Shown: one piece after another, positions 1 through 18,997 of the stretch
How the letters are laid out: every line of letters starts with the position of its first letter
How positions within the stretch are numbered: position 1 is the first letter of the stretch
From: a virus
Length of the DNA stretch: 21,460 nt
Virus record (IMG/VR): IMGVR_UViG_3300030104_003055
Location: 1 to 21,460 of that record
Strand: one strand, 5' to 3'
The notes under the pieces: generated by a model
Databases searched by the model: none
What the model was told of the DNA's origin: nothing
Seen by the model: the letters and a program-made list of their open reading frames with translations, nothing else
Position numbers and translations under genes: made by a program

Positions 1-3
1 AAT

Positions 4-3031: not shown

Positions 3032-3539
3032 AGGCCTCCAACTTCTTTAATGTACTGATGATTTTTTGCGTATAATATACATCTTCTGCATATATTGCAA
3101 GTGTCATAGCTAACTTCTCTAAGTCAACTATCTTATTGAAATACTGAGATAATCTTTCTTCTCTAAACTGTTTATAATGATGGTTATTATTAAGTAAATA
3201 CATATAGTAAGAAATGGATTCGCACTTTGTCTCAAAGATCCTAAGCCCCCAGCTTGCATTAGGATTATTTCGCGGCTTTAGTTGATCATCTGATGAGTCA
3301 AACGTGCGGATTCCAAGGAGGTTATTACCTTCCACGGCAAACCTAGATTTGCCCCAATTAGACTCATGAATTGCTTGAGCTATAACTAAATTAACTGGTA
3401 CTCTTTCTTCTTCTGAATACATAGAATTAAGATGCAATGCACACGCACTTACATCATCTATAAATTCATCATTAGTGGTGTAATCCATTTCTGGATTAAA
3501 CCCTATGCAAATCATTAATGTAACACAAATCCAGTTCAT
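3018..3539 (-). CDS. Bax-like glucosaminidase (peptidoglycan hydrolase)
   Basis: The protein resembles the Bax/FlgJ-type N-acetylglucosaminidase fold (GH73-like), which cleaves the glycan strand of peptidoglycan. The key block is VPVNLVIAQAIHESNWGKSRFA (residues 47-68) with the likely catalytic glutamate at 59, then GNNLLGIRTF (71-80), SWGLRIFET and a YYMYLLN repeat-like helix. The first 14 residues are hydrophobic (WICVTLMICIGF) and could be a weak export signal, but there is no clear cleavage site. The ATG at 3539 overlaps the DNA polymerase stop (ATGA); a TTG three codons upstream is less likely. It sits between the polymerase and the sulfur genes, far from the endolysin at 12786, which is odd for a lysis enzyme. 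It might be virion-borne or act early at the cell wall. Confidence 0.75.
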   Translation of the reverse strand: MNWICVTLMICIGFNPEMDYTTNDEFIDDVSACALHLNSMYSEEERVPVNLVIAQAIHESNWGKSRFAVEGNNLLGIRTFDSSDDQLKPRNNPNASWGLRIFETKCESISYYMYLLNNNHHYKQFREERLSQYFNKIVDLEKLAMTLAIYAEDVYYTQKIISTLKKLEAYDRD

Positions 3540-5368
3540 CCGCCCCAACTCTCTCCAAGATCTATATCAGCTTTAGAAGGCACCTCTAGTTCTACACATG
3601 TTTCCATAACTCGTTGTATTTCTTTAGCTTGTTTCTCATCTTTAACAGAGCAATCTAATTCATCGTGCACTTGTATTAAAGGTACTACTCCTAGCTCCTC
3701 ATATACATCTACCATGGCTTTCTTAGTTTGATCTGCCGCTGATCCTTGTATCAATCTATTTAAAGCTTTGTATGTACCAGCTCTTTTTATTGCTTCACCA
3801 TACTCTACCTTTGCTTGATTGTGTGGTAATGCTTTATGTACACCCCACTGTGTAGGTTCCCATAAATCAAATCTACATTTACGACCAAGTAATGTGCGAA
3901 TAATACCTTTAGAATTAGCACGATTCATTACCGCTTCCAACATACCTTGCATAAAAGGTACACGTTCACGGAAATCTTTCAACATTTTTTTAGCTTCCTG
4001 AGGATCTATATCTAACTCACGAGCCATCTTGTTATAACCCATGCCATACATTACACCTAAACCAATAGTCTTAGCTAGTCTTCTTTCGACCCCCGCCATG
4101 TCTGCCGTTTGTTGGTGAAAATCAAGATCACTTTTCTTATAGGCTTCTTTAACTTCTTCAGCGCCCAATTGTCCGACGAGGCATGCCCAATGCGTAAGTA
4201 ACCTGGGCTCTTGTTGCGAGTAGTCTGCTTTAAGCCAATACTCTCCAATTTCCGGGATAAATAGTTTACGTATCTCTTTAGCAAATTGACCGCGACTCGG
4301 TATCTGCTGCAAATTAGGATGATTGTAACTAAATCTACCAGATACAGTGCCACCGCTATCAGATCTAATTTGATTAATGTGCGCGTGAATTCTACCATTT
4401 GTGTTGTGTTTTAACAGACCTTGTAAAAAAGTTCCACGTAATTTATTAAGCTCACGTGCTTGCATAATAAGACGTGGTAGCTCATGCGGATGGTCAGTTA
4501 AAAACATTTTGGTAAATGATGGAGCATCTGTTTTAGTAGTTCTTTCGTATGGTAAATTTAAAGCATCAAAAGCTTTTGAAATAGAAGCTGCTGCCCATAT
4601 CTCTACATCCTGGTTAGTTAAATCCTTTATTCTTTTTAAAAGTTTCTTCTCTTTGTTTTTAAATTTACTATTTAAATCAACTACTTTTTCTTCGTCAAAT
4701 CTAACACCTTTTTTTGTCATGTTAAAAATAACACGGATTAATCTGCATTCAATATCATAGATTGTATCAAGATTATCCTTCTTAATCTCCCATGCTAATT
4801 TCTCATACAACTTTAGCGTTAGCCTTGCGTCTTCCTCAGCATACTCTCCTACAAATGTAGCCGGTAATTTATACATTTCAGCCTTTGCATCTACACCAAA
4901 TGATGCCGCTGCTTCTTTAAGTTTAGCTTCACTCTTAAATTCACCAAGGTAATCAAACGATATACTATTTAATGTATAAGAATATCTATTCTCATCAATA
5001 AGCGCCATTGCTACCATTGTGTCATGAATACGACCTTTAACTTCTATGCCTAATACACTAAGCCAACCTATGTCGTATTGTGCATTGTGAAATACTTTCT
5101 CTAACTTTTCATCTTCACACAATGATTTAATATATTTAATAACTTTCTTGCTATCCATGTTACCCCCACCTTCATGGGCGATAGGATAGTAAGCTTTAAA
5201 TCCATTAGCAGCTACAGCTATACCAATAACTGCACCTATCTTTTTAGGCCACCCAGGACCATCTTTAATTAATCCTGGGTCACATGTTTCTAAATCAATT
5301 GCTATTTTCTCCCGATTACTTAAATCCGGAAATTCCGTAGGTGCTATCCAATCTGAATTAATTGTCAT
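3536..5368 (-). CDS. Family A DNA polymerase with 3'-5' exonuclease
   Basis: This is the phage replicative polymerase, 610 residues, similar in design to T7 gp5 and the Klenow part of Pol I. The proofreading domain is intact: Exo I IDLET (D25/E27), Exo II HNAQYD (D99) and Exo III YAEED (Y176/D180). The polymerase domain has motif A WLKADYSQQEPR (D382), motif B RRLAKTIGLGVMYG (R429, K433, Y441) and motif C QVHDE (H568, D569, E570). The position equivalent to E. coli Phe762 is leucine (L437). No 5'-3' exonuclease domain is present. The start overlaps the preceding gene by 11 bases and its stop overlaps the glucosaminidase ATG. Confidence 0.97.
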   Translation of the reverse strand: MTINSDWIAPTEFPDLSNREKIAIDLETCDPGLIKDGPGWPKKIGAVIGIAVAANGFKAYYPIAHEGGGNMDSKKVIKYIKSLCEDEKLEKVFHNAQYDIGWLSVLGIEVKGRIHDTMVAMALIDENRYSYTLNSISFDYLGEFKSEAKLKEAAASFGVDAKAEMYKLPATFVGEYAEEDARLTLKLYEKLAWEIKKDNLDTIYDIECRLIRVIFNMTKKGVRFDEEKVVDLNSKFKNKEKKLLKRIKDLTNQDVEIWAAASISKAFDALNLPYERTTKTDAPSFTKMFLTDHPHELPRLIMQARELNKLRGTFLQGLLKHNTNGRIHAHINQIRSDSGGTVSGRFSYNHPNLQQIPSRGQFAKEIRKLFIPEIGEYWLKADYSQQEPRLLTHWACLVGQLGAEEVKEAYKKSDLDFHQQTADMAGVERRLAKTIGLGVMYGMGYNKMARELDIDPQEAKKMLKDFRERVPFMQGMLEAVMNRANSKGIIRTLLGRKCRFDLWEPTQWGVHKALPHNQAKVEYGEAIKRAGTYKALNRLIQGSAADQTKKAMVDVYEELGVVPLIQVHDELDCSVKDEKQAKEIQRVMETCVELEVPSKADIDLGESWGG

Positions 5369-5642
5369 GTTTTAATTCTCCTGCTATTGCCATGTATGCT
5401 GAAGCATCGACATAATCATCTACGTTAGCCTTACCTCTTTGTGATCTTGATATTTTTAATAATGCCATCATCGTTGCTACTTCATCAGAATTAATAGCCA
5501 CGCATGGTTTGAGTTTTTCATCTAAAAATACAGTCCAAAATTCTGCAATTTGTTCATGGTTTTGTTTTGTATCTCCATGTGTCTCTTGTCTTCCACCGTT
5601 AACTAACTCAGCGGCTTTTAATAATATTTCACTCTTGTTCAT
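5358..5642 (-). CDS. DUF6378-like phage protein
   Basis: The 94-residue protein matches, from memory, the small phage family DUF6378: it has RQETHGDTKQNHEQIAEFW (residues 18-36) and EVATMMALLKISRSQRG (54-70), followed by VDDYVDASAYMAIAGEL. The conserved His/Glu/Asp residues and all-helical look recall small nucleotide pyrophosphohydrolases of the MazG kind, but the catalytic EExxE motif of MazG is not evident, so function stays open. It is coupled to both neighbours: its ATG overlaps the UvrD-like gene stop (ATGA), and its end overlaps the DNA polymerase start. Placement between helicase and polymerase fits a role in replication or nucleotide supply (inference). Confidence 0.75.
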   Translation of the reverse strand: MNKSEILLKAAELVNGGRQETHGDTKQNHEQIAEFWTVFLDEKLKPCVAINSDEVATMMALLKISRSQRGKANVDDYVDASAYMAIAGELKHDN

Positions 5643-7144
5643 ATAATGAACCCTCCATCTCTTTGTGGTTGTACTACGTGTAGCTCATTACGAGCACGTG
5701 TGGCTGCTACATAAAACACACGGCATTCATCATCTGAATCCTTTTCCATTGCTTCTTGTGACTTTCTTGATAAGTCTGTAAGCAACATAACCTTATCTGC
5801 TTCTCCTCCTTTAGCACCATGAATTGTGCTTAAATGAATCTTTGGATCACTCTTGGTAAAATCCTTGTTCCTCGTTTCAATAGATCTTAAAAATTCTTTA
5901 TCACGTGTGCCTACCTTATCAAAAGCTACATCCCATGGTCTACCACCCATAAGTAATCCGTGGTGCATGACTAACTCTTCTAGCTCGTATTGTTCTTTAT
6001 TAGCTGTTCTAAGATTCTTATGGCCACGCTCTATTCCTATTTCTGAAGACATGTAAGAATATATATCTTTAACGTCTGTTAATTCTACGTGCCCCCCTTC
6101 ATTTAATTTCTTCCATGCGCTTGTAGCATTTAATAACTTCTGCGATATAGGTAAACGATTATTTCTTTTATAAAATAATCCTTGCAATCGTATGTCACGC
6201 TCAATCTCATCAAGTAAATAATTGGTTCGTGCCATGATAAGCCAGTTATCATCACCTACATCTACACTATCTGGGTATGCATGGTATTGTACTAATCCTC
6301 TAGTCTTTGTACCATACCATTGTTTAGGTATACGATTACGTACACGTCCTATAATTCTTTGTGAACAATTTTGTATAACTCGTGCACATCTATACGATTG
6401 TTGTAGTACTTCTCGCTCTCCATTTAATCTAATAAGATGTTCTACATCTGCACCAGCCCAACGGTAAATAGCTTGATCATCATCACCACTTACATAAACT
6501 TGTTTAGCATTCTGACATATCTTATGTACCATACGCCATTGTAGTTTACATAAATCTTGCGCTTCATCTATAAATACTACATCTAACTTTGGAATCATAC
6601 CAGCTTCTATGTACATTTCTATCATGTCTGTAAAATCTAGTATTTCTTTTTTCTTTTTAAATTCTTCAATAGAACGTTGTGCTCTCAACAATGCATGCCA
6701 AGAAACGTCTAAATTAGAATCATTATAATGATGTTCTAAATCCATACATTTCATTCTTGCTAAATTTACTTCAGACAGGAGCTGGTTATCAACTGTAAAC
6801 ACTCCACCTGAATCAACACCATCAGATACTGATCCTAAGTCCATACCAAATGTTTGTCCAAACTCTTTGTAATTATCACGTGACATTACCTCTGACTTTG
6901 TTAATCCTAATTGATTAAAAGCAAATGAATGTAAAGTTCTAAAATATGGAAGATGCTGCTCTTCTAAGTTAAACTTCTTCATTGCCCGGTCCCTTGCTTC
7001 ACTAGCTGCTTTCTTTGTAAAAGCTACAAATGCAATACGGTCTGGTGGTGTACCTTTAGCTAACTCTTGTTCCACTAAATTTAACAAGTTGTGTGTCTTT
7101 CCTGTACCAGGAGGACCTAGTATTATCTTTGTCTTACTTTGCAT
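5639..7144 (-). CDS. UvrD/Rep-like superfamily 1 DNA helicase
   Basis: A 501-residue ATP-driven 3'-5' DNA helicase of the UvrD/Rep/PcrA type, shorter than the bacterial proteins (about 670-720 residues) and apparently lacking parts of the accessory subdomains. Motifs in order: Walker A GPPGTGKT (10-17), motif Ia AFVAFTKKAA (38-47), TLHSFA (70-75), Walker B FIDEAQD (191-197), GDDDQAIYRWAG (220-231), QQSYRC (248-253), STIHGAKGGEADKV (motif V) and FYVAATRARNELHVV (motif VI) near the C-terminus. It sits between a PD-(D/E)XK nuclease and the polymerase, and may do unwinding at the fork or in recombination. No DnaB-type helicase is visible in the window, so it may carry part of that load (inference). 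Confidence 0.93.
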   Translation of the reverse strand: MQSKTKIILGPPGTGKTHNLLNLVEQELAKGTPPDRIAFVAFTKKAASEARDRAMKKFNLEEQHLPYFRTLHSFAFNQLGLTKSEVMSRDNYKEFGQTFGMDLGSVSDGVDSGGVFTVDNQLLSEVNLARMKCMDLEHHYNDSNLDVSWHALLRAQRSIEEFKKKKEILDFTDMIEMYIEAGMIPKLDVVFIDEAQDLCKLQWRMVHKICQNAKQVYVSGDDDQAIYRWAGADVEHLIRLNGEREVLQQSYRCARVIQNCSQRIIGRVRNRIPKQWYGTKTRGLVQYHAYPDSVDVGDDNWLIMARTNYLLDEIERDIRLQGLFYKRNNRLPISQKLLNATSAWKKLNEGGHVELTDVKDIYSYMSSEIGIERGHKNLRTANKEQYELEELVMHHGLLMGGRPWDVAFDKVGTRDKEFLRSIETRNKDFTKSDPKIHLSTIHGAKGGEADKVMLLTDLSRKSQEAMEKDSDDECRVFYVAATRARNELHVVQPQRDGGFII

Positions 7145-7419
7145 GTGCCATCCTTATCTACAAATATAAATTTCATCTTTAATCTTTTTTGTTCTTGAGT
7201 TAATCGTCTACATATACGTGTACCTGGTTTCCAAGTCTTACGATAGCTTTCAGTCTTTACATCAAATATTTCTACTGCTCCTTTTTCATTTATTGCTATG
7301 AGGTCGGCAGGTCCAACCCCATATAAATTTTTAAAAACAAAATAACCTTTTTCTATTAAATGTAGTATGGCTATTTGTTCACTTTGCATTCCCTTTTTTA
7401 ATTTAGAAAGGCGCACCAT
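7123..7419 (-). CDS. PD-(D/E)XK nuclease, resolvase-like
   Basis: A 98-residue protein with the PD-(D/E)XK core: GPADLIAI (Asp40 in numbering from an upstream TTG), then EIFDVKTES with Asp54 and Lys56, preceded by an N-terminal helix with a glutamine/glutamate (SEQIAILHLIEKGY) and a typical VFKNLYG strand. The size and layout fit small Holliday-junction-resolvase-like or endonuclease families found in phage replication modules. It probably processes branched DNA. The ATG at 7419 is chosen: a perfect AAGGAGG lies just upstream, though only 3 bases away. It overlaps the primase stop by 17 bases and its own 3' end overlaps the helicase start by 22 bases. Confidence 0.75.
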   Translation of the reverse strand: MVRLSKLKKGMQSEQIAILHLIEKGYFVFKNLYGVGPADLIAINEKGAVEIFDVKTESYRKTWKPGTRICRRLTQEQKRLKMKFIFVDKDGTCKVRQR

Positions 7420-8890
7420 CAACCTCCTTTATGTCAAATGCTGAATCTTGTTGCTGGTATGCAGGCACACCCCACACTCTCACTGTTCTACCTTTAAGAT
7501 TAAACTTATCACTTTTACCGTTAAGCCTGCGTAGTGCTTGTACTAACTGACCTGTATTATAGTGTGTAAATTTATTTCTAGTTAAATAGTCTAAAAGATC
7601 TTTTAATCTAAACCATGTGATACCATCTTCGGTCCATGGTTTACGTAATAGTAATTCATCTCTGTTCTGTGCCTGGGCACGATCAGTACAAAACTCCTGG
7701 AGGAAAGCTTCAAACTGACCGGCCACAGACCCGTCATCAGAAACAGGTATCTTTATAAGGTTAGTAAATAACCTTTCAATTGATTCCTGCCATACTGACT
7801 GTTTTACAAGAGGAGGCATAGTATTCAAAGTATTCATACATTTCTTTTGAAACTTTGTTTGTATCTGCAACTCATCTGTTTGTAATTCCATACGTGCATC
7901 GCCTACGTTTAAGATCCATACGGGTGGATCTGTTTCTAACTTAGTTAATGCGCTAAACTCTAATGATGCACTACCACCCACACCATGCTTACGCGTTCTA
8001 CATACTTGTGCGTTACAGTAAGAACTAATTGGTGGTTCTTTACATCTATAATTATATTCTTTTTTCTCTAGTTGATTTTGTACAATGACTACCTCTGATG
8101 CAGCTAACGGTGGGTTCATGTACTGTTGATTATGTTTTTCTAATAATGTTTTCCAATTGTCTGCATCTAACTTACGTAAAAATACACCAATATTAAATAA
8201 ACCATTATTACGTGTTCCTTCTGGAAATCCTTGTGTACATAATTGTTGAAGACATGGAGGACCATCGGGTATGACTTCATCAGATACCTTAATTGCAACT
8301 TTGTCTATATTCTCTAACGAATATTTATTGTATAAGTCTATGAACTCTAGCAATGACGCTGCTGTTCCATCATCCTTGTAGGCATACCTAGTTGAATTTT
8401 TGGCATTATAATATGGAAGATTTAAAAAATTTCCTAAATCTCCTTTCTCAATTAATATTGTGGATTGTTTCGGAAATACTTCAACGTCAGCGTATCCTAA
8501 CGCTGATGCAGCCTCTCGTAGCTTCGCTCTTATCAATTTTGCGGCGATTGGTTTTTTAAGAAATAAAAAAATATGTAAACCACCACTCTTGGAACGACAA
8601 GGCACCAAAGGTAATTGTAATGTTCGAATACTATTTATTATTTTTCTGTAATCAATAGGATAAGTATCAATATCAATACAGCCCCAACGGGATGTATTAT
8701 CAGCCATAATAGGAATAATACCCAAGGAAGGCCCTTCACCATCAAGGTGCGCCTGCCATAATTCATCTGTAACAAGTTTTTTAACAATGTAAGATTTTCC
8801 TTCTTGCTTACCGTCAGCACGCTTCCCTTGGGATTGATGCTGACCATAAGCCACGTCTAAACCTTCAAATATAGATTTGAATTCTTCCAC
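7403..8890 (-). CDS. AEP-type DNA primase (TOTE-like) with cysteine tetrad
   Basis: The 495-residue protein looks like an archaeo-eukaryotic primase of the kind first described in TOTE systems and many phages; it makes primers for replication. The catalytic core shows WGCIDIDTY (residues 69-77; D73, D75 for metal), RSKSGGLHIFLFL (99-111; His106), DVEVFPKQ (135-142) and GNFLNLPYY (153-161). A following helical domain holds PPCLQQLC and NNGLFNIGVFLRK. Cysteines 213, 283, 292 and 297 (YRC, YCNAQVCRTRKHG) form a set like the Fe-S site of the PriL C-terminal domain. The C-terminal third has no recognised domain. The start is a GTG at 8890 supported by GGAGG 4 bases upstream. It follows the SSB gene after a hairpin. 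Confidence 0.85.
   Translation of the reverse strand: MEEFKSIFEGLDVAYGQHQSQGKRADGKQEGKSYIVKKLVTDELWQAHLDGEGPSLGIIPIMADNTSRWGCIDIDTYPIDYRKIINSIRTLQLPLVPCRSKSGGLHIFLFLKKPIAAKLIRAKLREAASALGYADVEVFPKQSTILIEKGDLGNFLNLPYYNAKNSTRYAYKDDGTAASLLEFIDLYNKYSLENIDKVAIKVSDEVIPDGPPCLQQLCTQGFPEGTRNNGLFNIGVFLRKLDADNWKTLLEKHNQQYMNPPLAASEVVIVQNQLEKKEYNYRCKEPPISSYCNAQVCRTRKHGVGGSASLEFSALTKLETDPPVWILNVGDARMELQTDELQIQTKFQKKCMNTLNTMPPLVKQSVWQESIERLFTNLIKIPVSDDGSVAGQFEAFLQEFCTDRAQAQNRDELLLRKPWTEDGITWFRLKDLLDYLTRNKFTHYNTGQLVQALRRLNGKSDKFNLKGRTVRVWGVPAYQQQDSAFDIKEVDGAPF
7423..7429 (-). promoter_or_regulatory. Strong Shine-Dalgarno, AAGGAGG
   Basis: A perfect anti-16S-complementary AAGGAGG lies inside the primase 3' end just before the nuclease gene. 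The distance to the ATG at 7419 is short (3 bases); to the next in-frame GTG it is 6. It supports re-initiation on the nuclease gene and rules against a start further inside. Confidence 0.6.
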
Positions 8891-8894
8891 TAAA

Positions 8895-8899
8895 CCTCC
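8895..8899 (-). promoter_or_regulatory. Shine-Dalgarno for primase GTG start
   Basis: GGAGG is placed 4 bases before the GTG at 8890 and decides this start, since no in-frame ATG is nearby. The motif lies in a small palindrome (AACCTGGAGGTT) whose 2-base loop is too tight for a stable hairpin. Confidence 0.65.
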
Positions 8900-8909
8900 A
8901 GGTTATTTA

Positions 8910-8938
8910 GAAGACGTTCCCTAAAAGGGTACGTCTTC
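8910..8938 (-). promoter_or_regulatory. Intercistronic hairpin over the SSB stop codon
   Basis: A perfect 8-bp inverted repeat (GAAGACGT and ACGTCTTC) encloses, after one mismatched base, a 3-bp CCC/GGG extension and a 5-base loop, 29 bases in all. It covers the last codons and the TAG stop of the SSB-like gene. No U-run follows on the transcribed strand, so it is not a canonical intrinsic terminator. It could protect the upstream mRNA from 3' exonucleases or cause partial termination, keeping SSB high and primase low (inference). Confidence 0.55.
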
Positions 8939-9724
8939 GCTTTCTGTTGTGTTAGATTGAGGCGCTACTTTTGCAGGTTCTCCTTCTACGACAGGTTTAG
9001 CTTCGACATCTCCTCTTGATGCTGCGGTTGAAAATGATTTTGCCTCATTATAGACAGTAGGATCATCCACCATTTTAGATTTCTCAACTTGGTACCCAAA
9101 CCAACTACCACGATCATTTGACTCGCTAACAGTAGATAGCTTGTAAACAATTGCATAGGTTGGTGGAGTAAAACTTCCTGATGGACCCTCAACTTTCTGC
9201 GTAAGCATTAAGCTATTCCAACGTCTACTCTTTTTTAATTGAGTAGAGGTCATGCTGATAACAGCCTGGGACCAATTCCCATCTTTACCTTGTACCATTA
9301 CATAATGGTAAGCTGTTGTAGCAATGTAGTTTCCATTTGGAAGGACATCTTTATATGTCATTTGGTCACGTTTAGTTTGACCCAAGATGCCACTAGAGGC
9401 ATCATGCATTTCCACTAGTCCGCCACCAGTTTCACGTGGTTTCCATTCCACGTATTTTAGTTGATAAAGTACAGGGATAACATTTAATGAATCACTTACT
9501 TCTTGTGAAACAGTATTATAAAACTGTCCCACTTTTGCTCCTTCAACATGTTCCGCTTTTGACGGGTTAAGTTGAGGGCTAGTTGTTTGTAGTATGTTGA
9601 TGTAAGGAATCATAACATCTCTTGACATGTCAAGATTGCCAAATCCACTTGCATCTTTTGAGTCACCAGCAAGAACTGCTAGATCTAACTTCGCTGCTTT
9701 TGCAACTGCTTTAGTCTGTGCCAT
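8921..9724 (-). CDS. Single-stranded-DNA-binding-like protein
   Basis: The 267-residue protein ends in an acidic tail SEDVPF, closely like the DDDIPF tail by which bacterial SSBs recruit partner enzymes. The body has two halves with beta-rich blocks (VIPVLYQLKYVEWKP, residues 83-97; YAIVYKLSTVSE in the C-terminal half). A low-complexity linker rich in E, P, V and K precedes the tail. It lacks the classic bacterial SSB signature, so the fold assignment rests on tail and context rather than on sequence identity. It lies just upstream of the primase. AAGGAG sits about 10 bases before its ATG. A role in coating ssDNA at the fork is likely but inferred. Confidence 0.65.
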   Translation of the reverse strand: MAQTKAVAKAAKLDLAVLAGDSKDASGFGNLDMSRDVMIPYINILQTTSPQLNPSKAEHVEGAKVGQFYNTVSQEVSDSLNVIPVLYQLKYVEWKPRETGGGLVEMHDASSGILGQTKRDQMTYKDVLPNGNYIATTAYHYVMVQGKDGNWSQAVISMTSTQLKKSRRWNSLMLTQKVEGPSGSFTPPTYAIVYKLSTVSESNDRGSWFGYQVEKSKMVDDPTVYNEAKSFSTAASRGDVEAKPVVEGEPAKVAPQSNTTESEDVPF

Positions 9725-9738
9725 AGGGCTTTTCTCCT

Positions 9739-10287
9739 TTATTCTTTTATTGTTGTTTTTTGTCCGACGAAAGCTCCTAACAAATCCATAGGTAACTCTT
9801 TACCTGCTTCATGTTGCTCTCGTATAAATGCGCGAAGGGTGGAGGGTTCGACCCACTCGCGTTGCGAAGATTGATATCCACCTTTATTCAAAGTATCAAT
9901 TAATCCTCTAGCTTTCTCATCTTCATCCCGTCCAAAGCTACAACTGACCTGGTTCTTTATCATGTCCCCAAATCCATTGTTCCTTAACCATGCAAATGCT
10001 GCTTCTTTTTTAGCTTCTTTAATAGATGCACCGTAATAGTTACCAACTTTTAAGTGTCTACCATCTGCAAGTTTTAATTCTGATAATCCAACCTCTGCAA
10101 AAAGGTTAGGTAAAACATTTTCTGATAAATGTTTTTTGTAATCTTTTTTAGTTTTAAGTTTGTCTTCTAAATCTTGTATTTCTTTTTCAGTGTCAGCTAC
10201 ATCATTAGCTACTGCACCAATTTTACCCATACTGTTATGACCCATACCTTTGGAATCATTTTTCATCTGGTCTAATAAATCATTCAT
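9739..10287 (-). CDS. Phage replication-module protein of unknown role, 182 aa
   Basis: No function recognised. Residues 10-18 hold a KGMGHNSMG motif also seen at the N-terminus of other alphaproteobacterial and phage proteins. Residues 25-55 form a likely coiled coil (VADTEKEIQDLEDKLKTKK), followed by a small beta-rich core (ELKLADGRHLKVGNYYGASI) and a helical C-terminus. The start ATG lies in the stop region of the upstream gene (8-base overlap). Its fixed place before the SSB-like protein suggests a helper of replication or recombination, perhaps an SSB partner (inference). Confidence 0.7.
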   Translation of the reverse strand: MNDLLDQMKNDSKGMGHNSMGKIGAVANDVADTEKEIQDLEDKLKTKKDYKKHLSENVLPNLFAEVGLSELKLADGRHLKVGNYYGASIKEAKKEAAFAWLRNNGFGDMIKNQVSCSFGRDEDEKARGLIDTLNKGGYQSSQREWVEPSTLRAFIREQHEAGKELPMDLLGAFVGQKTTIKE

Positions 10288-10594
10288 CTTTACCCCACAA
10301 ATCTATTTCTATATCGTAGTACCGTTTCTCATCACGATCCCACTTCAGTATTTTAAATCTACCTCTATTCATCTCACTAACAACTGCGCCAGCTAAAGCT
10401 ATAATAGCAGGATCACCCATTAAAAGCAAGTAGTCATCATCATTAAATGTGGATAACTCTTTTTTTAATTTATGTGTTAATGGTCCAGAAGATAAAACTA
10501 TTTGTTTATTATCTGGAAGTAATACTTTTAAATCGCCAAACTTTTCGGCTGAACGAACATTTCTTCCCATTTCTTGTAAAACGTAAACTGTCAT
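10280..10594 (-). CDS. Hypothetical protein, 104 aa, first gene of replication operon
   Basis: No family recognised. A compact mixed alpha/beta protein: a Lys/Asn-rich N-terminal half with VLLPDNKQIVLSSGPLTHKL, a DDDYLLLMGDPAIIALAGAVV helix (residues 51-71) and a C-terminal RFKILKWDRDEKRYYDIEI strand pair. The alanine-rich helix is not long enough in hydrophobics for a confident membrane segment. It is the first gene after the divergent promoter; the predicted transcript start leaves a leader of roughly 14 bases with only an AAGAAA purine stretch as ribosome site. As the most promoter-proximal gene of a long operon it is likely the earliest expressed (inference). Confidence 0.75.
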   Translation of the reverse strand: MTVYVLQEMGRNVRSAEKFGDLKVLLPDNKQIVLSSGPLTHKLKKELSTFNDDDYLLLMGDPAIIALAGAVVSEMNRGRFKILKWDRDEKRYYDIEIDLWGKDE

Positions 10595-10605
10595 AATTTT
10601 ATTTC

Positions 10606-10634
10606 TTGCGTTGCATTATAGCATATGATATAAT
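10606..10634 (+). promoter_or_regulatory. Sigma70-type promoter for the SNF2 gene
   Basis: TTGCGT (10606-10611) and a perfect TATAAT (10629-10634) are separated by exactly 17 bases, with a TG two bases before the -10 box (extended -10). The expected start near 10641 gives a leader of about 17 bases before the ATG at 10658. Confidence 0.8.
10615..10634. repeat. 20-bp near-palindrome joining two -10 boxes
   Basis: ATTATAGCATATGATATAAT is an inverted repeat with one mismatched pair, centred on CATATG (10622-10627). Its ends are the -10 boxes of the two opposed promoters. It could also serve as a dyad operator. Confidence 0.75.
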
Positions 10635-10643
10635 CTGCGTCAA
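10615..10643 (-). promoter_or_regulatory. Sigma70-type promoter for the replication operon
   Basis: On the minus strand TTGACG (10643-10638) and TATAAT (10620-10615) are also 17 bases apart, again with TG one base upstream of the -10 box. Transcription would begin near 10608 and enter the gene at 10594. The element overlaps the plus-strand promoter almost fully, so the two cannot be occupied at once. Confidence 0.8.
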
Positions 10644-10657
10644 CATTAGAAATAAGA

Positions 10658-12097
10658 ATGTACAAATTTAAAACTGAGCCATATGCGCATCAAAAAGATG
10701 CCCTTAAAAAATGCTGGAATAAAGAAGCATTTGCCATTTTTGCAGAAATGGGTACAGGTAAAACTAAAATTGCATTAGATAATGCATGCATATTATATAA
10801 CAAAGGCAAAATAGACCGCTTACTAGTGGTTGCCCCAAAAGGAACGTACATGAACTGGGTTGAACAAGAAATCCCCGTTCACGTTCCAGATTATATAGAG
10901 AAAAAAGTATTGGCTTGGAAACAATCTACCAGCGCACAATACAGACAAGATTTAAAAGACATTAAAGATATTAACGATTTTAGATTTAAAATTATGGTAA
11001 TGAATGTAGAAGCTTTTTCTAGTAAAAAAGGTTTAGAATTTGCTAAAATATTTTTGATTGGTAAATCAATGATGATTGTAGACGAAAGCACTACAATTAA
11101 AAATCCACAAGCCAAAAGAACTAAATCAATTCTACAATTAAGAAATGAAACTAAATACCGTAGAATATTAACTGGTTCACCAGTAACACAATCACCTATG
11201 GATTTGTGGTCACAGATGGATTTTTTAGACCCAGAAATATTAGGGCAGTCTAGTTATTACGCGTTTAGAACCCGGTACGCCGTGGTCATTACAGCAAATG
11301 CCGCAGGTGGAACACACAAGTATCAAAAAATAGTTAAGTTTAAAAACTTAGCACAATTAGGACAGTTAGTATCACCACATTCTTACCGTATTCTTAAAAA
11401 AGATTGTTTAGATCTACCTGATAAAATATTTACCAAACGTCCCGTAGAACTGACAGATGAACAACATAAAGCTTATAGTGAAATGAAATCAAATGCTATG
11501 ACCATGCTGCACACTGGAGAAACTCTTACAGCTGTTAATGTATTAACTCAGTTAATTAGATTACATCAAATTACGTGTGGTCACATGAAAACTGATGAAG
11601 GTGAAACTGTGCAGTTAAAAAATAATCGTCTTAACGAGCTTATGCAAATATTAGGTGAGACTACAGGTAAAGTTATTATTTGGGCAAATTACATACATGA
11701 TATTATGTCTATACAAAAAGCAATTAATGATGAATTTGGTCCTCAGTCAGCATGTACTTATTATGGTGGCACTAAACAAGAAGACAGACAAGCATGTATC
11801 AAAAAATTTCAAGATCCAGAAAACCCAATTCGTTTTTTTATAGGCAACACACAAACTGGTGGGTATGGAATTACGTTAACAGAAGCGAGTACTGTTATTT
11901 ATTATTCTAATAATTATGACTTAGAAAAAAGAATACAATCAGAAGACCGCGCACATAGAATAGGTCAAAAAAATAAAGTATTATATATTGACTTAGTTGC
12001 TAAAGGAACTGTTGACGAAAAAATAATTAAAGCTCTTAGAAATAAAGTTAATATTGCTAGAGAAATAAATGGAGAAGAATTAGCAAGTTGGATTTAA
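10658..12097 (+). CDS. SNF2-type helicase/translocase
   Basis: A 479-residue superfamily 2 ATPase of the SNF2 type, common in phages in a compact form. It shows a Q-motif region (AHQKDAL, residues 10-16), Walker A AEMGTGKTK (29-37), a DEST box in place of DEAH (VDESTTIKNP, 141-150), LTGSPV (171-176), IIWANY, GGYGITLTEAS, and RIQSEDRAHRIGQKNKV with the arginine finger of motif VI. It likely moves on double-stranded DNA, remodelling protein-DNA complexes or helping recombination. It is the only large plus-strand gene, driven by the divergent promoter at 10606. Its stop overlaps that of the facing exonuclease by 3 bases, leaving no room for a terminator, so read-through would make antisense RNA to the exonuclease and lysis genes. 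Confidence 0.92.
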   Translation: MYKFKTEPYAHQKDALKKCWNKEAFAIFAEMGTGKTKIALDNACILYNKGKIDRLLVVAPKGTYMNWVEQEIPVHVPDYIEKKVLAWKQSTSAQYRQDLKDIKDINDFRFKIMVMNVEAFSSKKGLEFAKIFLIGKSMMIVDESTTIKNPQAKRTKSILQLRNETKYRRILTGSPVTQSPMDLWSQMDFLDPEILGQSSYYAFRTRYAVVITANAAGGTHKYQKIVKFKNLAQLGQLVSPHSYRILKKDCLDLPDKIFTKRPVELTDEQHKAYSEMKSNAMTMLHTGETLTAVNVLTQLIRLHQITCGHMKTDEGETVQLKNNRLNELMQILGETTGKVIIWANYIHDIMSIQKAINDEFGPQSACTYYGGTKQEDRQACIKKFQDPENPIRFFIGNTQTGGYGITLTEASTVIYYSNNYDLEKRIQSEDRAHRIGQKNKVLYIDLVAKGTVDEKIIKALRNKVNIAREINGEELASWI

Positions 12098-12762
12098 AGT
12101 AAAGATTGATTATATAAATCTAATTTTTTCATAAAAGCATCACAAGCCCTAGTAAACTTTTCACCTGTTAATTCAAAACGTTGAAATGTTAAATCTCTTG
12201 AACACATTAATACTACACCTTGTTCAATTTCTGTATTAAATAAAGCGTTGTGTGCCTGGGCGTATGCAGCTAGTTGCATGAGGTAATCTTGTATCCATTC
12301 ACGTTTCTTTGGGCGATTAGTTTGTTTAAAATCTATAATGGTTGGTTTGTCTTTATACATGGCAATCATATCAGCCGTACCAGCATATTTGTTAGGATAA
12401 TACAAATGTACTTCTGAACCATAAACTTCTGTTATATCAGCACCGGCTTCTTCAATTATTTTTTTTGCCATTTTTTCAGCTTGTATTCCTATGTCTGTAA
12501 GATCTGCGTACTTTTCTTCGTTCACTAAACGTTCTATATATAGGTGGAGCGCGGTTCCAATTTTACCAGCATCAGATATAATTTTTTCTGCTTTTTCTTC
12601 CCCTACTTTAGCCCGCCATTGTTTTAAAAACGATTTGTCTTTTGTTTTATTTAATATGGTTGTAACAGATGGTAAGCTTTGTCCATCAGGTGTAAGATAT
12701 AAACGAGAATCACCATCCTGTCGTTTAAGTTCTGCGTAATTATATTTCTGTACTAATTGCAC
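12094..12762 (-). CDS. PD-(D/E)XK exonuclease, RecB/MGME1-like
   Basis: The 222-residue protein is a PD-(D/E)XK nuclease of the type found as phage exonucleases. It has TPDGQSLPSVTTIL (residues 24-37), GTALHLYIERL (69-79, His73), EVHLYYPNKYAGTADMIA with Glu117 and Asp131, TIIDFKQTNR with Asp144 and Lys146, and a YLMQLAAYA helix. It lacks the cysteine cluster of Cas4. A role in host DNA breakdown, end resection or recombination, like T7 gp6, is likely. The GTG at 12762 is the earliest possible start: an in-frame TAA lies 9 bases upstream. No Shine-Dalgarno precedes it, and a -10-like box ends 5 bases before the GTG, suggesting a leaderless message. Confidence 0.85.
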   Translation of the reverse strand: MQLVQKYNYAELKRQDGDSRLYLTPDGQSLPSVTTILNKTKDKSFLKQWRAKVGEEKAEKIISDAGKIGTALHLYIERLVNEEKYADLTDIGIQAEKMAKKIIEEAGADITEVYGSEVHLYYPNKYAGTADMIAMYKDKPTIIDFKQTNRPKKREWIQDYLMQLAAYAQAHNALFNTEIEQGVVLMCSRDLTFQRFELTGEKFTRACDAFMKKLDLYNQSLL

Positions 12763-12777
12763 GTGGTATTATACCAC
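12763..12777 (-). promoter_or_regulatory. Palindrome with extended -10 box at exonuclease start
   Basis: GTGGTATAATACCAC (minus strand) is a perfect 7-bp inverted repeat about one central base. It contains TGG-TATAAT, an extended -10 box, but no clear -35 element lies 16-18 bases upstream. It abuts the GTG start codon. It may be a promoter with a built-in operator; as a hairpin it lacks a U-run and would be a poor terminator. Confidence 0.5.
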
Positions 12778-12785
12778 AAATTGTA

Positions 12786-13292
12786 CTAAATTTCTAATGC
12801 TAATTTGGTAGTTTCTTCTACCCTTTTTGTCCAACCTTTTCCAAAGGTATCAAAAGTAGATAATTCTTCGTAGTATTTTTGTCTTCCATTTTGATAATGA
12901 CCAATAGCATGTGCAACATTAAATTTGTTAACATACTCTTCTACTTTTGCAAGGGTCATAGGTCCAATGCCACCATCTGCTTTAGTTCCTACTAATGTCT
13001 GAAGATATTTTGCTGCTCTTCCGGGTCCTGCATTCACACCAAAATCAAAAACACATAGATCTAAACCTGATGGTAAATCATCACATTTCATTTTATCCCA
13101 ATAACCTTTTTTGTAAATAGGTGCTACGTCTTCCACTGTTAAATCTTTCATGTCTTTTGTGCCACCATGTTCTTCATAAACTCTTTTAGTTACACCAAGA
13201 TTTGTTTCTCCACCTGGGTCCTTGGGGTGATTAACATATCCACCTTCATGATGTAAAATTGTTTTTAAGCATTGTTCGTAATTATGTTTCAT
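12786..13292 (-). CDS. Endolysin, glycosyl hydrolase family 108
   Basis: A 168-residue muramidase-type endolysin that degrades peptidoglycan for host lysis. The N-terminus has the GH108 hallmark HHEGGYVNHPKDPGGETNLG (residues 14-33) with the catalytic glutamate at 16, then GVTKRVYEE. The C-terminal half contains FDFGVNAGPGRAAKYLQ and DGGIGPMTLAKV, typical of the family's peptidoglycan-binding part. No signal peptide is evident, so release would need a holin; the small membrane protein encoded just upstream is the obvious candidate. The ATG overlaps that gene's stop (TAATG). The ribosome site is weak, so translation probably depends on coupling. Confidence 0.93.
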   Translation of the reverse strand: MKHNYEQCLKTILHHEGGYVNHPKDPGGETNLGVTKRVYEEHGGTKDMKDLTVEDVAPIYKKGYWDKMKCDDLPSGLDLCVFDFGVNAGPGRAAKYLQTLVGTKADGGIGPMTLAKVEEYVNKFNVAHAIGHYQNGRQKYYEELSTFDTFGKGWTKRVEETTKLALEI

Positions 13293-13495
13293 TATCTATC
13301 CAATTTTTTATTTATATTTTTTACTTCGTTTTCTATGACCGCTATTCTAGCTTCCATTTTTGTAAATAAAATTAAAGCTTCTTCTATACGATCTATGTCT
13401 CGTTCCATAGCATTAATACGTTGCGATGTCATACCCCATGTAGCTCCAAGTGCTATAAAAATTCCTATAATCCAAATAGCATCTCTTACACTCAT
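13292..13495 (-). CDS. Holin-like membrane/coiled-coil protein, 67 aa
   Basis: Residues 5-21 (DAIWIIGIFIALGATWG) form one membrane helix, followed by a long amphipathic coiled coil (residues 28-67) rich in E, K and I. This single-span N-terminal anchor plus coiled coil is common among small lysis-cassette proteins, including some holins and spanin-like proteins, but no exact family was recognised. Its location directly before the endolysin, with TAATG coupling, supports a lysis role. It starts one base after the stop of the 1078-residue virion gene. A tail-assembly or T7 gp17.5-like role remains possible. Confidence 0.7.
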   Translation of the reverse strand: MSVRDAIWIIGIFIALGATWGMTSQRINAMERDIDRIEEALILFTKMEARIAVIENEVKNINKKLDR

Positions 13496-13496
13496 A

Positions 13497-16400
13497 TTAA
13501 CTTACCAAAGATATTATGCCACCTCTTGCTGCAGTAGGCATTTGAGTGGTTGGGCCTGTAGGAGTACCAAATTGATTCGCTAGTGCTGCATCCGTGTTTC
13601 CACTATATAAACTAGCTGCCGCATTAGGATTCATACTTTGATTAAGAGCAATAGATGAGCCTGTAGTGCCACCTCCGAACGTATTTCCAGAAGTAGCACC
13701 GACAGACGTTGGGCTAGAAGATGCAACTGAAATATCTTCAGTTACATCAGTTACCGCAGGAGTGTTTGCAGACTCCTCACGGATTCCTTGTTTGGCTTGC
13801 GCCGCTTGTTTCATTTTTTCAAAGATGTTTATCTTTTCAGATATCTCTTCTCTACCAGTAGGGTCTGGTGGTTTATAAGCATTTACTTGATCAGTTCTAC
13901 GTTGTTGATTTAATACATCTTGAGTTTGTAATTCAAGTTCTTCTAAATCACCATTAAAGTTTGCACCAATAGTTTGTAATGCATTTTTAACAGCAAGTGC
14001 TTTAGCTGCTGAACCATATTTATGATAAGTAAAAGGATTCCATATTCTTGCAATATCTTCATCTGTTGCTTTTAAAATTTGATTAGCTGCTTTTAAATTA
14101 ATTGGATTAGTTAATATTTTACCACCTTGTCTTGCAAGTAAAGAAAACATAACAGCGTGTACCATGCTTACAGCCGGCACTGCAGCTCCAGCAGTTGCAG
14201 AACCACCTATAGTTCTACCTGGTAAGAAAGATCTAATAGCTCCTTGAAGACCAGAAATTTGTGCTCTTCTTGCTATGAATGTACTAATATCAGGAACACC
14301 ACCACGGAAACCTGCTTCTAAAACTGTAGCAAAATCTGTTAAATCTTTTGCTGTTACAAAACCAGTTTTAACTTGTTTTGCTTTTCCACCTAAAATTTGA
14401 ATTGTTTTTGCATCAGCTCCGGCATCAATTAAATCATCCGGTAAAGATTTCATCCAAGGTTGAAGGTTATCTTTTCCTATACCTTTTTGTGCTATATTTA
14501 ATCCTTCATCAATAGTTGCAAATAACTTTCCATTTTTATCATCAAGACCTAAATTTTCTATAAATTTTTTAGGATCAATTTGTTTAGCAGCAGCAACACC
14601 TTCTTGGTTTAATGCTTTTGTAGCAGCAAGTGGTGAATTTAAATCTAAAAATGATTTTCCTGGCCATGCTTTTAATGCACTGTCGTATGCTGATTCAATA
14701 TGCCTTCTCATCATACCTCTAAAAATGTCATCACCTACAAGAACTTGTAAATGTTTCATAGATTGAGGTGATTCTAAAAGTTTAGCTGTATGTAATAAAT
14801 CATCAGCATATTTAGAACCTTGTTGTCCAAGTTTAACTTGATAACCATACAACATATTTTCTGATAAACCTAATTGCTTTGCAACTGGAGAACCAAGAAG
14901 CATTTGCCCTTGTGACCAAAGATCATCATAACGTTTTAATGATGCTTTACCAGCTTCACCTAAATCAATTTGTCTCATAGCATTTTGAATTGATTGAGAA
15001 AATTGTTCAGCAAAATTAATAGCAGTAGGATTAGTTTTCATACCACCCATTTTCATTATTTGTCCAAGTTCATCTAACATTGCATCTGCACGTGCTAATG
15101 TAACTGAACCAGGTTCTTGTAATATATTATCAAAAAATGTGTTTAATCTATTTTTAACTACAACTGGAAGTGGTGTACCATCTAAACCTTTACCTGTTAT
15201 TTGTGCCATGTGTGCTTTAAAATCTGTAATGATTGCGTGTGGAGAACCATCACCAATATTACCAGCAAGCTTTACATTAGCTCCTCTAGAAATTGCATGA
15301 TCAAACCATTCTTTTCTTAATTTAGTTAACTCTTTAGTAAGATTACCGACAGTAACTTTAGAAGATGCGCTCACTGCTTCAGACAATCTATTATAACTAA
15401 CTGATGGAGCAATACGATTAGTCATGTCATCTAAAATAACATTCATTTTTTCTGCACGTTGAGCAAGGTTCTTTGCTCCTCCACCGCCAATTAAAGGAAA
15501 TCTTAAAAATACATTTGGAAAACCTTGAACAGATCTATATTTACTTACATCGGTAATACCTAATATTGCATCTGGTTCACCAGTTCTTTTCATCCAACCA
15601 GTTTTACCACCATATTGTCCTTCCGGAATAAATTTTTCTGATAGATCCATTCCTTTTTTAGCTAATGTTTGATCACCAGCTCCTAATAAACCTCTAGTAA
15701 GGTTTCTAACACCATTAATAGAAGGTGCTATAAAAGCGCCCATCGCCGTTAACTTTACTTCTTGTTCTGCTGTGTCTACTAAACCTCTTGCTCTTTCCGT
15801 TACACCAGGTCTATTAATTCCTTTTTTACCAAACACACCTGCTTGGTTAGCTACGTCAAGTGCTGTTTCATATCCATAATCTGCTGTTAATACACCAACA
15901 AGACCACCAGCAAGTGCGCCTGCCATTCGTCCCCAATAAGGACCACCTTTCCAAAACTTAAATCCACCTTGAACACCTTTACCAAAAGCTTGAGCTCCTT
16001 TACCTAACATAGAAGGTTGAGCAATTGCCCAGTTCTTTGACATATTATATCCAAGAATATTACCCCCAATACCACCACCAAATTTCATTATATTTTCAGC
16101 TTCAGGAAAAGGGTTAGGTGAACTTGTAGTTAATCCATAAGGGTCTGGCATTAAATTTACATCAACATCTCCACCGCCTTGGATTTCTTGTGCCGTGTAT
16201 CCATTTTGTCTTGCGTAAGCTAATAACCTTGCTTCCAATTCATTTTGATTAACACTACCAGGATTTTCATTTTCTTTTTTTTGTGCTTGTGCAATTACTT
16301 GAGAAATTTCTGCTCTAACTGTTTCAACAGGTCGTCTATTTGCTAAGGCTTTTTCGTATTGAATTTGTAATTCTTCATCTGCTTTAACTTTATCAAGTAA

Positions 16401-16733
16401 AGCTTTTGCTTCAGCAGCTCTTTGTTTTTTTATATTTTCCGGAACTCCTCGTGGACCATATTGATAAATATCATAAACGGTTTCTGCACCACCTTTAACT
16501 GCATCCCAAAAACCACCTAATATAGCGTCTTTTGCATCACCACTTTTTTTTCTTATGCGATCTATTCTTGCTTCAGCATCACTAATTGGAACAGTTTTTC
16601 TAAAGTCTACATATTCAGTATCTTTAGCACCAATAACTTTTTCTTTTCCTACATCTCCCATTAACAATTCAGAGATACCATCGGAAGATAAAGGATTTAC
16701 AACGTTTAAACCTTTTTTAATTAAGTCAGCCAT
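13497..16733 (-). CDS. Large internal virion protein, 1078 aa (T7 gp16-like position)
   Basis: The largest gene in the window. No enzymatic domain was recognised, and no lytic transglycosylase motif was seen at the N-terminus where T7 gp16 has one. Residues about 230-290 are glycine-rich and partly hydrophobic (GGGIGGNILGYN, GRMAGALAGGLVGVLTADYG), compatible with membrane insertion during DNA ejection. Long helical stretches follow. Residues about 935 onward are low-complexity, Q/S/T/G-rich, ending in ARGGIISLVS. By order and size it corresponds to T7 gp16 (1318 residues). The start overlaps the previous gene's stop (TAATG). The assignment is by synteny, not by sequence similarity. Confidence 0.6.
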   Translation of the reverse strand: MADLIKKGLNVVNPLSSDGISELLMGDVGKEKVIGAKDTEYVDFRKTVPISDAEARIDRIRKKSGDAKDAILGGFWDAVKGGAETVYDIYQYGPRGVPENIKKQRAAEAKALLDKVKADEELQIQYEKALANRRPVETVRAEISQVIAQAQKKENENPGSVNQNELEARLLAYARQNGYTAQEIQGGGDVDVNLMPDPYGLTTSSPNPFPEAENIMKFGGGIGGNILGYNMSKNWAIAQPSMLGKGAQAFGKGVQGGFKFWKGGPYWGRMAGALAGGLVGVLTADYGYETALDVANQAGVFGKKGINRPGVTERARGLVDTAEQEVKLTAMGAFIAPSINGVRNLTRGLLGAGDQTLAKKGMDLSEKFIPEGQYGGKTGWMKRTGEPDAILGITDVSKYRSVQGFPNVFLRFPLIGGGGAKNLAQRAEKMNVILDDMTNRIAPSVSYNRLSEAVSASSKVTVGNLTKELTKLRKEWFDHAISRGANVKLAGNIGDGSPHAIITDFKAHMAQITGKGLDGTPLPVVVKNRLNTFFDNILQEPGSVTLARADAMLDELGQIMKMGGMKTNPTAINFAEQFSQSIQNAMRQIDLGEAGKASLKRYDDLWSQGQMLLGSPVAKQLGLSENMLYGYQVKLGQQGSKYADDLLHTAKLLESPQSMKHLQVLVGDDIFRGMMRRHIESAYDSALKAWPGKSFLDLNSPLAATKALNQEGVAAAKQIDPKKFIENLGLDDKNGKLFATIDEGLNIAQKGIGKDNLQPWMKSLPDDLIDAGADAKTIQILGGKAKQVKTGFVTAKDLTDFATVLEAGFRGGVPDISTFIARRAQISGLQGAIRSFLPGRTIGGSATAGAAVPAVSMVHAVMFSLLARQGGKILTNPINLKAANQILKATDEDIARIWNPFTYHKYGSAAKALAVKNALQTIGANFNGDLEELELQTQDVLNQQRRTDQVNAYKPPDPTGREEISEKINIFEKMKQAAQAKQGIREESANTPAVTDVTEDISVASSSPTSVGATSGNTFGGGTTGSSIALNQSMNPNAAASLYSGNTDAALANQFGTPTGPTTQMPTAARGGIISLVS

Positions 16734-18997
16734 TATTTATATAATTCCATTAATTCACCAAAATCTGCTGGCCCTGTAACATTTACTTCATTTGTTCCAG
16801 AATAAATACTATTATTTCCCGTTGAAAGTGTTTGATTTTCATCAGGGAATTGACCTAAAAACCCTAAATTAATTCCTTGGTCTATTGCTTCTGGCCCAAC
16901 GAATCCTAAATAAGATTCATTATATCCTTGAATTGTAAGTGGTTGATTTAATCTACCTACACCAAATTGTGTTTCAGGTTTCATACCAGCTCTCATTGCG
17001 TGTGTAGCATAAGCATTGTATAGACGTTTTACAAACATATGCATTTTATTTGCATACTGTCTTGGATCACCTGAAGTTAACATTCTATCTTTTTTCAAAT
17101 TATTAATTGAAGTTTGAATTGTATCTGCAAGTAGACGACCAGTAGGCTGTTTTAAACGTGCTTCCAAGAAACCCATCATATTAATCATTTGTTCTTCTAT
17201 GTCATAGAATTGATTATCCATTAGGTTTCTTACATATTGTTCAGTAGCAAAATTACCTTCTCTAATGTTTCCACTTCCGTCATCATACTTACCAAATTGA
17301 ACATCTTTTTGGCCACCATGTGCTTTAGTTGCAATGTTTCCTTCACCGGCAAGTAAACCCATTTGTGAGTTAACTAAACCTTGCATTGTGTCTTCTGTTT
17401 GTGATCTCATCATTCCATACATTCCAGACATAGCATTAGATGCTGTTTTATTATTCGGGAAGAAAGTATTAAAGAAGTTTTGAACATCTTTAGTAACAAA
17501 TCTAGCAGTCTTTAAAGCAAGACCAGCTGTACCTGTTTGGAAATTACCTGAGTGAACACCTATTTCAGGGTCAGTTACAAAGTTTAAAATTTGTTCCAGG
17601 TTACTTTTGTATACACCAGCAAGTAATGATTGCTCACCACGTTGTGCTTTAGTAAGATTCATATCACCCAAACCAGAAGCTTTTGCTCCAGCATCAGTCA
17701 TATTAAATGGAACAACTTGAATATTAGGATCACCTAAAGATATTATATTTAATGCTTCTGGTGACTTAGAAAATACTTGTCTTACATTTGTCCAGTTATC
17801 AATCATTTCTCCATTAGGACCAATAAACGGAGTGTTCATTTGAATCATAGATAAATCTCCTGGAGGATTCATTGCATTTTTATAGTTTTCTTTTTGAACC
17901 CAATTATCCAGTTTATATTCTTCTTTCCAAACCCAATCAGTTAAATCGTCTGCACGTTTTCTTTTTGATGCACGGTCTTCACGAAGCATTTCGTAAGCCG
18001 CAAGTGAAATTTCTTTATCTTCTTTACGTTTGTTCTGCATGTGTTGCATCCACATAGGAAGAACTTGTTGTCCTGTTTTACCTAATATTTCAGCAAAACC
18101 AGCAAACCCAGGTTGATTAGATTTGCCCGCCATCATACCTAAACCAAGTTGCATTAACATAAGAGGTCCCATTGTCCCATCTTCTTTACCCATAATGCCT
18201 TGGAGCTCGGCTTTATAATCTTCAATTGATTTTTCTGATATAGTATCATCAACTGCCAGCACTTCTGATTTTAAATCAGGAATTGGTCCACCTGCAGCAC
18301 CTACAGTAGTTCCAGTGCCATCATATTCATCATTAGAATCTAAATCTGCCACACTATCATCAGGAACATTATCACTACCTGGTGTTATAGGTCCTTCTAC
18401 TTCTGGTATAACACCACTAGCAGTTGGTCCTTCTGTTGTCCCTGTTTGTGTTTCTGTTTCAACGGTTGATCCTGCTTCCACATCTACATTAGATGCAGCT
18501 TCAGAATGGTCCGTAGTCCAATTGTCTAGCATCGAATATGTAAATGGATAAGCTAATTGTTCAGTTATTTTTCTTCCACCTGGCATTTTAGGAATAGCTT
18601 TCCAATGATCTATAACTTCTTGTGGTAATCCTTTAACACCTTTTACACCACTAGCTTCTAGTGCTGTTAAATTATGTTTATTTCTTAAGTTATTTAATTT
18701 ACCACTCCATTCTTGTAATCTAAAATCATAGGTATCACCACCAGGTCTTCCTTTTCTATTAAGAGGTGCAAAATTTCTAGGGCCAGTTTTTCCAACCACA
18801 GGATTTTGTATTCCTGCTGCTCTTGGATTAACCATTCTATTTATGTTGTATGGAATATTTGAAAATTTAGGAGCGTAATATTTTGCTGCTCTATACACTT
18901 GTGGTGCAGCTCTAAGTATACCACCAATAAATTTAGCTTGTCTCATCTGACCATCAGGTCCACGTTTAAACATAGGACGATTAAGTGTCTTACTCAT
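16733..18997 (-). CDS. Internal virion protein, 754 aa (T7 gp15-like position)
   Basis: A 754-residue structural protein with no enzymatic motif seen. The N-terminus (RPMFKRGPDGQ, residues 7-17) is basic, with a hydrophobic-basic segment after it. Residues about 165-245 form an acidic Thr/Ser/Gly-rich, probably disordered linker (repeated T, E, D and P; DDSVADLDSNDEYDG). The remainder is mainly helical with several QMG/MMG-rich patches. T7 gp15 is 747 residues and occupies the same place in the gene order, so a role in the ejection tube is proposed. The ATG lies directly after the preceding stop, with AGGAG 5 bases before it inside the upstream gene. Confidence 0.6.
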   Translation of the reverse strand: MSKTLNRPMFKRGPDGQMRQAKFIGGILRAAPQVYRAAKYYAPKFSNIPYNINRMVNPRAAGIQNPVVGKTGPRNFAPLNRKGRPGGDTYDFRLQEWSGKLNNLRNKHNLTALEASGVKGVKGLPQEVIDHWKAIPKMPGGRKITEQLAYPFTYSMLDNWTTDHSEAASNVDVEAGSTVETETQTGTTEGPTASGVIPEVEGPITPGSDNVPDDSVADLDSNDEYDGTGTTVGAAGGPIPDLKSEVLAVDDTISEKSIEDYKAELQGIMGKEDGTMGPLMLMQLGLGMMAGKSNQPGFAGFAEILGKTGQQVLPMWMQHMQNKRKEDKEISLAAYEMLREDRASKRKRADDLTDWVWKEEYKLDNWVQKENYKNAMNPPGDLSMIQMNTPFIGPNGEMIDNWTNVRQVFSKSPEALNIISLGDPNIQVVPFNMTDAGAKASGLGDMNLTKAQRGEQSLLAGVYKSNLEQILNFVTDPEIGVHSGNFQTGTAGLALKTARFVTKDVQNFFNTFFPNNKTASNAMSGMYGMMRSQTEDTMQGLVNSQMGLLAGEGNIATKAHGGQKDVQFGKYDDGSGNIREGNFATEQYVRNLMDNQFYDIEEQMINMMGFLEARLKQPTGRLLADTIQTSINNLKKDRMLTSGDPRQYANKMHMFVKRLYNAYATHAMRAGMKPETQFGVGRLNQPLTIQGYNESYLGFVGPEAIDQGINLGFLGQFPDENQTLSTGNNSIYSGTNEVNVTGPADFGELMELYK

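Follow-up and report, generated by a model that had tools for sequence, protein, structure and literature searches.

What do two promoter-like sites that face apart and overlap fully do between a helicase gene and the replication operon of a marine SAR11-type phage? The two sites make up a 38-bp core at positions 10606–10643 of the window, by which we mean the entire virus record, which has 21,460 bases and is probably a phage fragment. The annotated relatives nearest to the window, phage 023Pt_psg01 and Pelagibacter phage HTVC027P, both belong to the HTVC023P-type group (PMC9599517). An earlier note on this DNA had described the core as two fully overlapping divergent promoters on one near-palindrome, and had proposed that it could act as a built-in switch and that the dyad could also bind a repressor. 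Judging from sequence, we consider the core to be, with a probability of about 0.78, a compact pair of sigma70-type promoters, with exclusive binding and a shared output, for a flipped SNF2-type helicase gene and for the replication operon.

Architecture of the double-promoter core

The SNF2-type helicase gene lies downstream of the plus promoter with a predicted leader of ~17 nt, and the 104-aa gene heads the leftward operon with a predicted leader of ~13 nt (Table 1). Both strands carry the sigma70-type combination of a -10 element near TATAAT and a -35 element near TTGACA at 16–18 bp, and the minus promoter is the top sigma70-like match (11/12) in positions 1–20000 of the window. Each -35 box sits beyond the -10 box of the opposite promoter, on the expected start of that promoter: the plus -35 box also spans the expected minus-strand start (predicted at ~10607–10608), and the minus -35 box spans the expected plus-strand start (predicted at ~10641–10642). 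The -10 boxes themselves are separate, with 8 bp between them, and the predicted starts are ~33–35 bp apart. In the near-palindrome ATTATAGCATATGATATAAT, 9 of 10 pairs are symmetric around the centre CATATG, with the -10 boxes at both ends; the single-stranded hairpin of the window core is weak (-3.0 kcal/mol). The promoter elements, 17-base spacers, TG and TATAAT that the earlier note had listed on both strands, and the near-palindrome, were right to the base.

Table 1. Coordinates of the genes and promoter elements around the core
Feature	Position	Strand	Basis or remark
SNF2-type helicase gene, 479 aa	10658..12097	+	PF00176 3.7e-26, PF00271 2.3e-16
104-aa gene, Pam3 gp32 family	10280..10594	-	PF23992 7.7e-28
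Pam3 gp33-like gene, leftward operon	9739..10287	-	PF23984 2.3e-29
Pam3 gp34-like gene, leftward operon	8921..9724	-	PF23977 2.2e-65
Primase (AEP-type)	7403..8890	-	phrog_21866 3.5e-85; PF22548 2.5e-13
UvrD-like helicase	5639..7144	-	PF00580 6.8e-30
Family A DNA polymerase	3536..5368	-	PF00476 1.6e-68
Plus -35 box TTGCGT	10606..10611	+	SNF2-direction promoter; 3/6 consensus matches, weak
Plus extended -10, TGA then TATAAT	10629..10634	+	SNF2-direction promoter; 17-bp spacer
Minus -35 box TTGACG	10638..10643	-	Replication-operon promoter; 5/6 consensus matches
Minus extended -10, TGC then TATAAT	10615..10620	-	Replication-operon promoter; 17-bp spacer
Mirror-image double-promoter core, 38 bp	10606..10643		Sequence, simulation, comparison
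Near-palindrome, 20 bp	10615..10634		Two -10 boxes and 8-bp centre

Chance expectation

The promoter arrangement is not a product of chance, and what is surprising is the arrangement rather than the palindrome. When the window was simulated 1,500 times with a second-order Markov model, 12 of the simulated sequences contained ATTATA-N8-TATAAT, and in none was it accompanied by TTG at the two -35 positions. Palindromes that match the 18/20 dyad in quality are expected ~0.9 times per simulated window and one was seen, which places the dyad alone at chance level. A stricter form of the pattern was found at only 9 loci among the bacterial and archaeal genomes of 84,980 species, and this rarity speaks against a common bacterial motif. 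Five of these loci are from Treponema, where a cassette repeated in MAGs (L229, L230, L234, L235 and L236) places a mirror-image pair (TTGACGGCGATTATATACCGNCATATAAT...GTCAA) before several genes and is possibly an invertible promoter family.

Conservation in the window's clade

Searches with both flanking proteins, combined with a pattern scan, yielded 182 divergent-pair loci with 67 distinct SNF2/104-aa intergenic sequences. TATAAT is present on both strands in 46 of the 67, on one strand in 9 and on neither in 12, while TTG is found at both -35 boxes in 66 of the 67; the plus -35 box of relatives is frequently TTGACT or TTGACA. The -10 hexamers lie 14 bp apart in most relatives, a register that was built into one fit and was recovered by a separate, unconstrained fit. 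Several lineages lack the final T of one or both -10 boxes (TATAAG, TATATA, TATAGA). Where other genes intervene between the flanking pair (intergenic distance of 249–934 bp), the core is usually whole and located at one end. A gene-blind scan for the architecture across 2.9 million viral contigs returned 58 loci, 36 of which adjoin the SNF2 and/or the 104-aa gene. A 40-bp mirrored core is also shared by two viral contigs, L199 (775–814) and L217 (9609–9648), between two divergent ORFs without the SNF2/104-aa pair; one of the two contigs is 362,810 bases long.

Five cores carry the full TTGACA-17-TGnTATAAT on both strands, with SNF2 identity of only 56–58%; they were found via the pattern, which fixed part of these letters but left free both the TG and the CA in TTGACA. 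The retention of both -10 and both -35 boxes across the window's clade strongly supports two fully overlapping divergent promoters. The outcome named in the earlier note as refuting, conservation of only one -10 box, is absent from this clade; it does find a partial counterpart in the 023Pt clade, part of which has a degenerate minus -10 box and retains the TTGACA of that promoter.

Could only one of the promoters work, with the other arising incidentally from the symmetry of the -10 box, as happens at many promoters in bacteria? The -10 element is near-symmetric and often yields incidental reverse transcripts (PMC10268837), and the plus -35 box of the window is poor (3/6). However, the -10 boxes of the core are separate instead of shared, both -35 boxes are conserved as well, each direction runs straight into conserved genes, and the five full-consensus cores are complete on both strands, so that a single working promoter is very improbable.

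Geometry of the core in sister clades

Two extra protein searches, independent of the promoter pattern, extended the comparison to 348 loci with 186 distinct upstream sequences, and the promoter pair scored above the 99th percentile of shuffles in 87% of this set. The distance between the TTGAC arms differs by clade (33/34, 37 and 38 bp), while the within-strand spacers are mostly 16–18 bp; in the window and L201 clades the fitted spacers are 16–18 bp on both strands. Most cores of the L201 clade are 33–34 bp long and read TTGACAATATA-N12-TATATTGTCAA or variants of it, each strand having TATATT at 17 bp. Among the 023Pt-like phages, the TTGACA arms are mostly 37 bp apart and the plus side can be read with a 17-bp spacer to TATATA or a 19-bp spacer to TATAAT; the fit often favours the latter. 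Because the arms shift while the within-strand spacers stay mostly constant, a pair of promoters is a better fit than a single rigid dyad.

Not every phage that carries these genes needs the element, since HTVC023P has no clear promoter pair by eye and the DSL-LC04 junction scores poorly. In many L201-clade loci (L244–L317), the start codon of the 104-aa gene lies, by eye, 1–2 bases from the core, which predicts a leaderless transcript.

Symmetry, covariation and a possible operator

The palindrome could instead bind a dimeric repressor or activator, with the promoter-like letters being partly a consequence. This reading gains from the inverted TTG arms at both ends of 66 of the 67 distinct cores and from the behaviour of the two -10 hexamers, which change jointly across lineages. 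On the SNF2 tree, consensus loss in the two boxes is coupled: across 9 independent pairs, 5.9 changed the same way and 0.0 the opposite way (median p 0.03). Two independent promoters do not predict such covariation, which counts against the double-promoter reading; possible causes are a coordinated tuning of the two boxes, copying of one arm from the other between inverted repeats, and a bound dimer. In addition, the 33-bp cores of the L201 clade match their own arms in mirror image better than shuffled partners (11.27 vs 9.80, p 0.01).

In the window's clade, by contrast, the 38-bp cores are no more symmetric in their spacer and centre positions than shuffled partners, with 13.29 own-arm mirror matches vs 13.25 (p 0.45). 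The alignment of relatives that the earlier note had suggested came out in two ways: both -10 boxes are kept in this clade, but symmetry beyond the promoter elements is not. The combination expected of a dyad operator, symmetry beyond the promoter elements at a fixed spacing, was not found, the L201-clade 33-bp cores being the exception. From clade to clade the arms are separated by anything from 33 to 38 bp, and the 18/20 symmetry is at chance level in the window. On the variable arm distance and the lack of extra-promoter symmetry in the window's clade, a repressor dyad is out as the main reading; the repressor-binding role once suggested for it is disfavoured, and an operator in the broader sense is quite unlikely.

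Between L007 and the window, the flanks are 91–100% identical but identity across the 30-bp core drops to 50%, a pattern that an exchange of cores or their rapid turnover might leave. Some pairs of cores align better when one is inverted (L089 vs L067, 87% inverted against 58%), as an inversion of the core between relatives might produce; but the promoter consensus is itself symmetric, and no near-identical pair of relatives with inverted cores was seen. A more far-reaching and rather doubtful idea is that pelagiphages repeatedly rebuild the overlapping mirror pair, with three or more geometries and joint changes of the two -10 boxes, and that polymerase competition thereby balances helicase and operon output. 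Arm copying between inverted repeats during replication, a kind of template switching described previously (PMC8604942), possibly helps the rebuilding.

Gene order and the question of a switch

The helicase, the homologue of the 104-aa gene and the genes that follow are co-directional in Pam3, Rhizobium phage RHph_I65 and YuA, and YuA has an annotated promoter upstream of the helicase. Gene order in Acinetobacter phage pB23, where the genes are without names, looks co-directional too; in DSL-LC04 the gene pair is divergent. The simplest reading of these gene orders is that the helicase gene was flipped in the pelagiphage lineage, with its expression probably still tied to the old operon. The co-directional homologues in outgroup phages argue for sharing and co-expression and against a switch.

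In a genetic switch, the two promoters would be active at separate times in the infection, and a factor from the phage or the host would pick the direction. Such systems exist: overlapping divergent promoters with a regulator form a real switch in plasmid pLS20 (PMC4207663), and at bidirectional promoters a gain of activity one way represses transcription the other way (PMC12825309). At the present locus, no DNA-binding regulator was recognised among the window proteins searched, which cover only part of the small ORFs of what is itself a fragment; other phages have the homologues of the helicase and of the operon genes in one direction; and both promoters have the same element types in most relatives, so that the sequence marks neither as early or late. 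The built-in switch of the earlier note thus finds no support, and we regard a switch as unlikely.

Proposed mode of action

Shared, competing co-expression of the helicase and the old operon is the favoured reading. The host sigma70 RNA polymerase would bind the core in either orientation, and a polymerase bound one way would hide the opposite promoter. Exclusive binding is expected from the position of each -35 box on the start site of the other promoter and from the mere 8 bp between the -10 boxes, and every initiation would then be a one-or-the-other event. Over many events, the relative strengths of the two promoters would set how transcription is split between the helicase and the operon. 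Many cores are near consensus, which makes competition between the directions plausible. From the sequence and its relatives we infer the start sites, the sigma factor, the timing, the exclusion and the preference for co-expression over a switch.

Comparison with known systems

Overlapping divergent promoters are already known from pLS20 and from E. coli. Steric exclusion has been described at overlapping promoters (PMC12825309, PMC4207663), and mutual exclusion of polymerase at the present core would follow from its full overlap and from analogy with these published cases. Warman, Grainger and colleagues described short pseudo-symmetric sites that polymerase occupies in two orientations, yielding divergent RNAs that are often mRNAs of linked function (PMC12825309, PMC10268837). 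The core resembles these promoters in being one short site with two polymerase orientations and, as expected here, exclusive binding. In their promoters, however, the starts are 7–25 bp apart (10, 18 and 23 bp being common) and either flank a shared -10 element or fall inside it. In the core, ~33–35 bp separate the predicted starts, each promoter has a -10 box of its own instead of a shared one, and the -35 boxes fall on the opposite starts. Competition at the published E. coli bidirectional promoters occurs only at high activity (PMC12825309), and the five that were tested had basal activity too low for competition, in contrast to the many near-consensus cores here.

The Pc/Pr promoters of pLS20 (PMC4207663) are likewise fully overlapping and divergent, with coinciding boxes in the reading favoured by the authors. 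They pair a strong promoter with a weak, regulator-dependent one and form a switch with RcoLS20, whereas the two promoters here are of similar quality in most relatives. Overlapping divergent promoters of functionally linked genes are also found at E. coli bioA/bioB, which was among the five tested (PMC12825309). The bioA/bioB starts lie within 10–23 bp and share a -10 element, in contrast to the separate -10 boxes of the core. The bioA/bioB region carries a BirA operator, and no counterpart of it was seen at the core.

Closer to the window, the gp01/gp87 junction of HTVC027P (MN698241) has the same divergent gene pair and, by eye, promoter-like elements in both directions. If the record ends join, as the comparison assumes, the predicted -10 boxes of this junction overlap (ATTATATA), compared with the 8 bp that separate them in the window. 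The HTVC027P junction (record ends L002 and L163) is thus closer in form to the bidirectional promoters with a shared -10 element in the literature. Text searches for promoters in the paper on the HTVC027P transcriptome (PMC12753301) and in that on HTVC023P-type genomes (PMC9599517) gave no match, and no description of the conserved mirrored form was found in the open-access literature searched.

The core suggests where transcription of the replication genes starts in phages of this group. Together with its relatives it forms a series of overlapping promoters made by nature, ranging from degenerate ones to those with full consensus on each strand, at one syntenic place in abundant ocean phages. 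Such a series allows one to test when steric competition between polymerases shapes expression, a question newly opened in E. coli (PMC12825309). What sets this locus apart from the known systems is the distance between the predicted start sites, the separate -10 boxes and the quality of both promoters.
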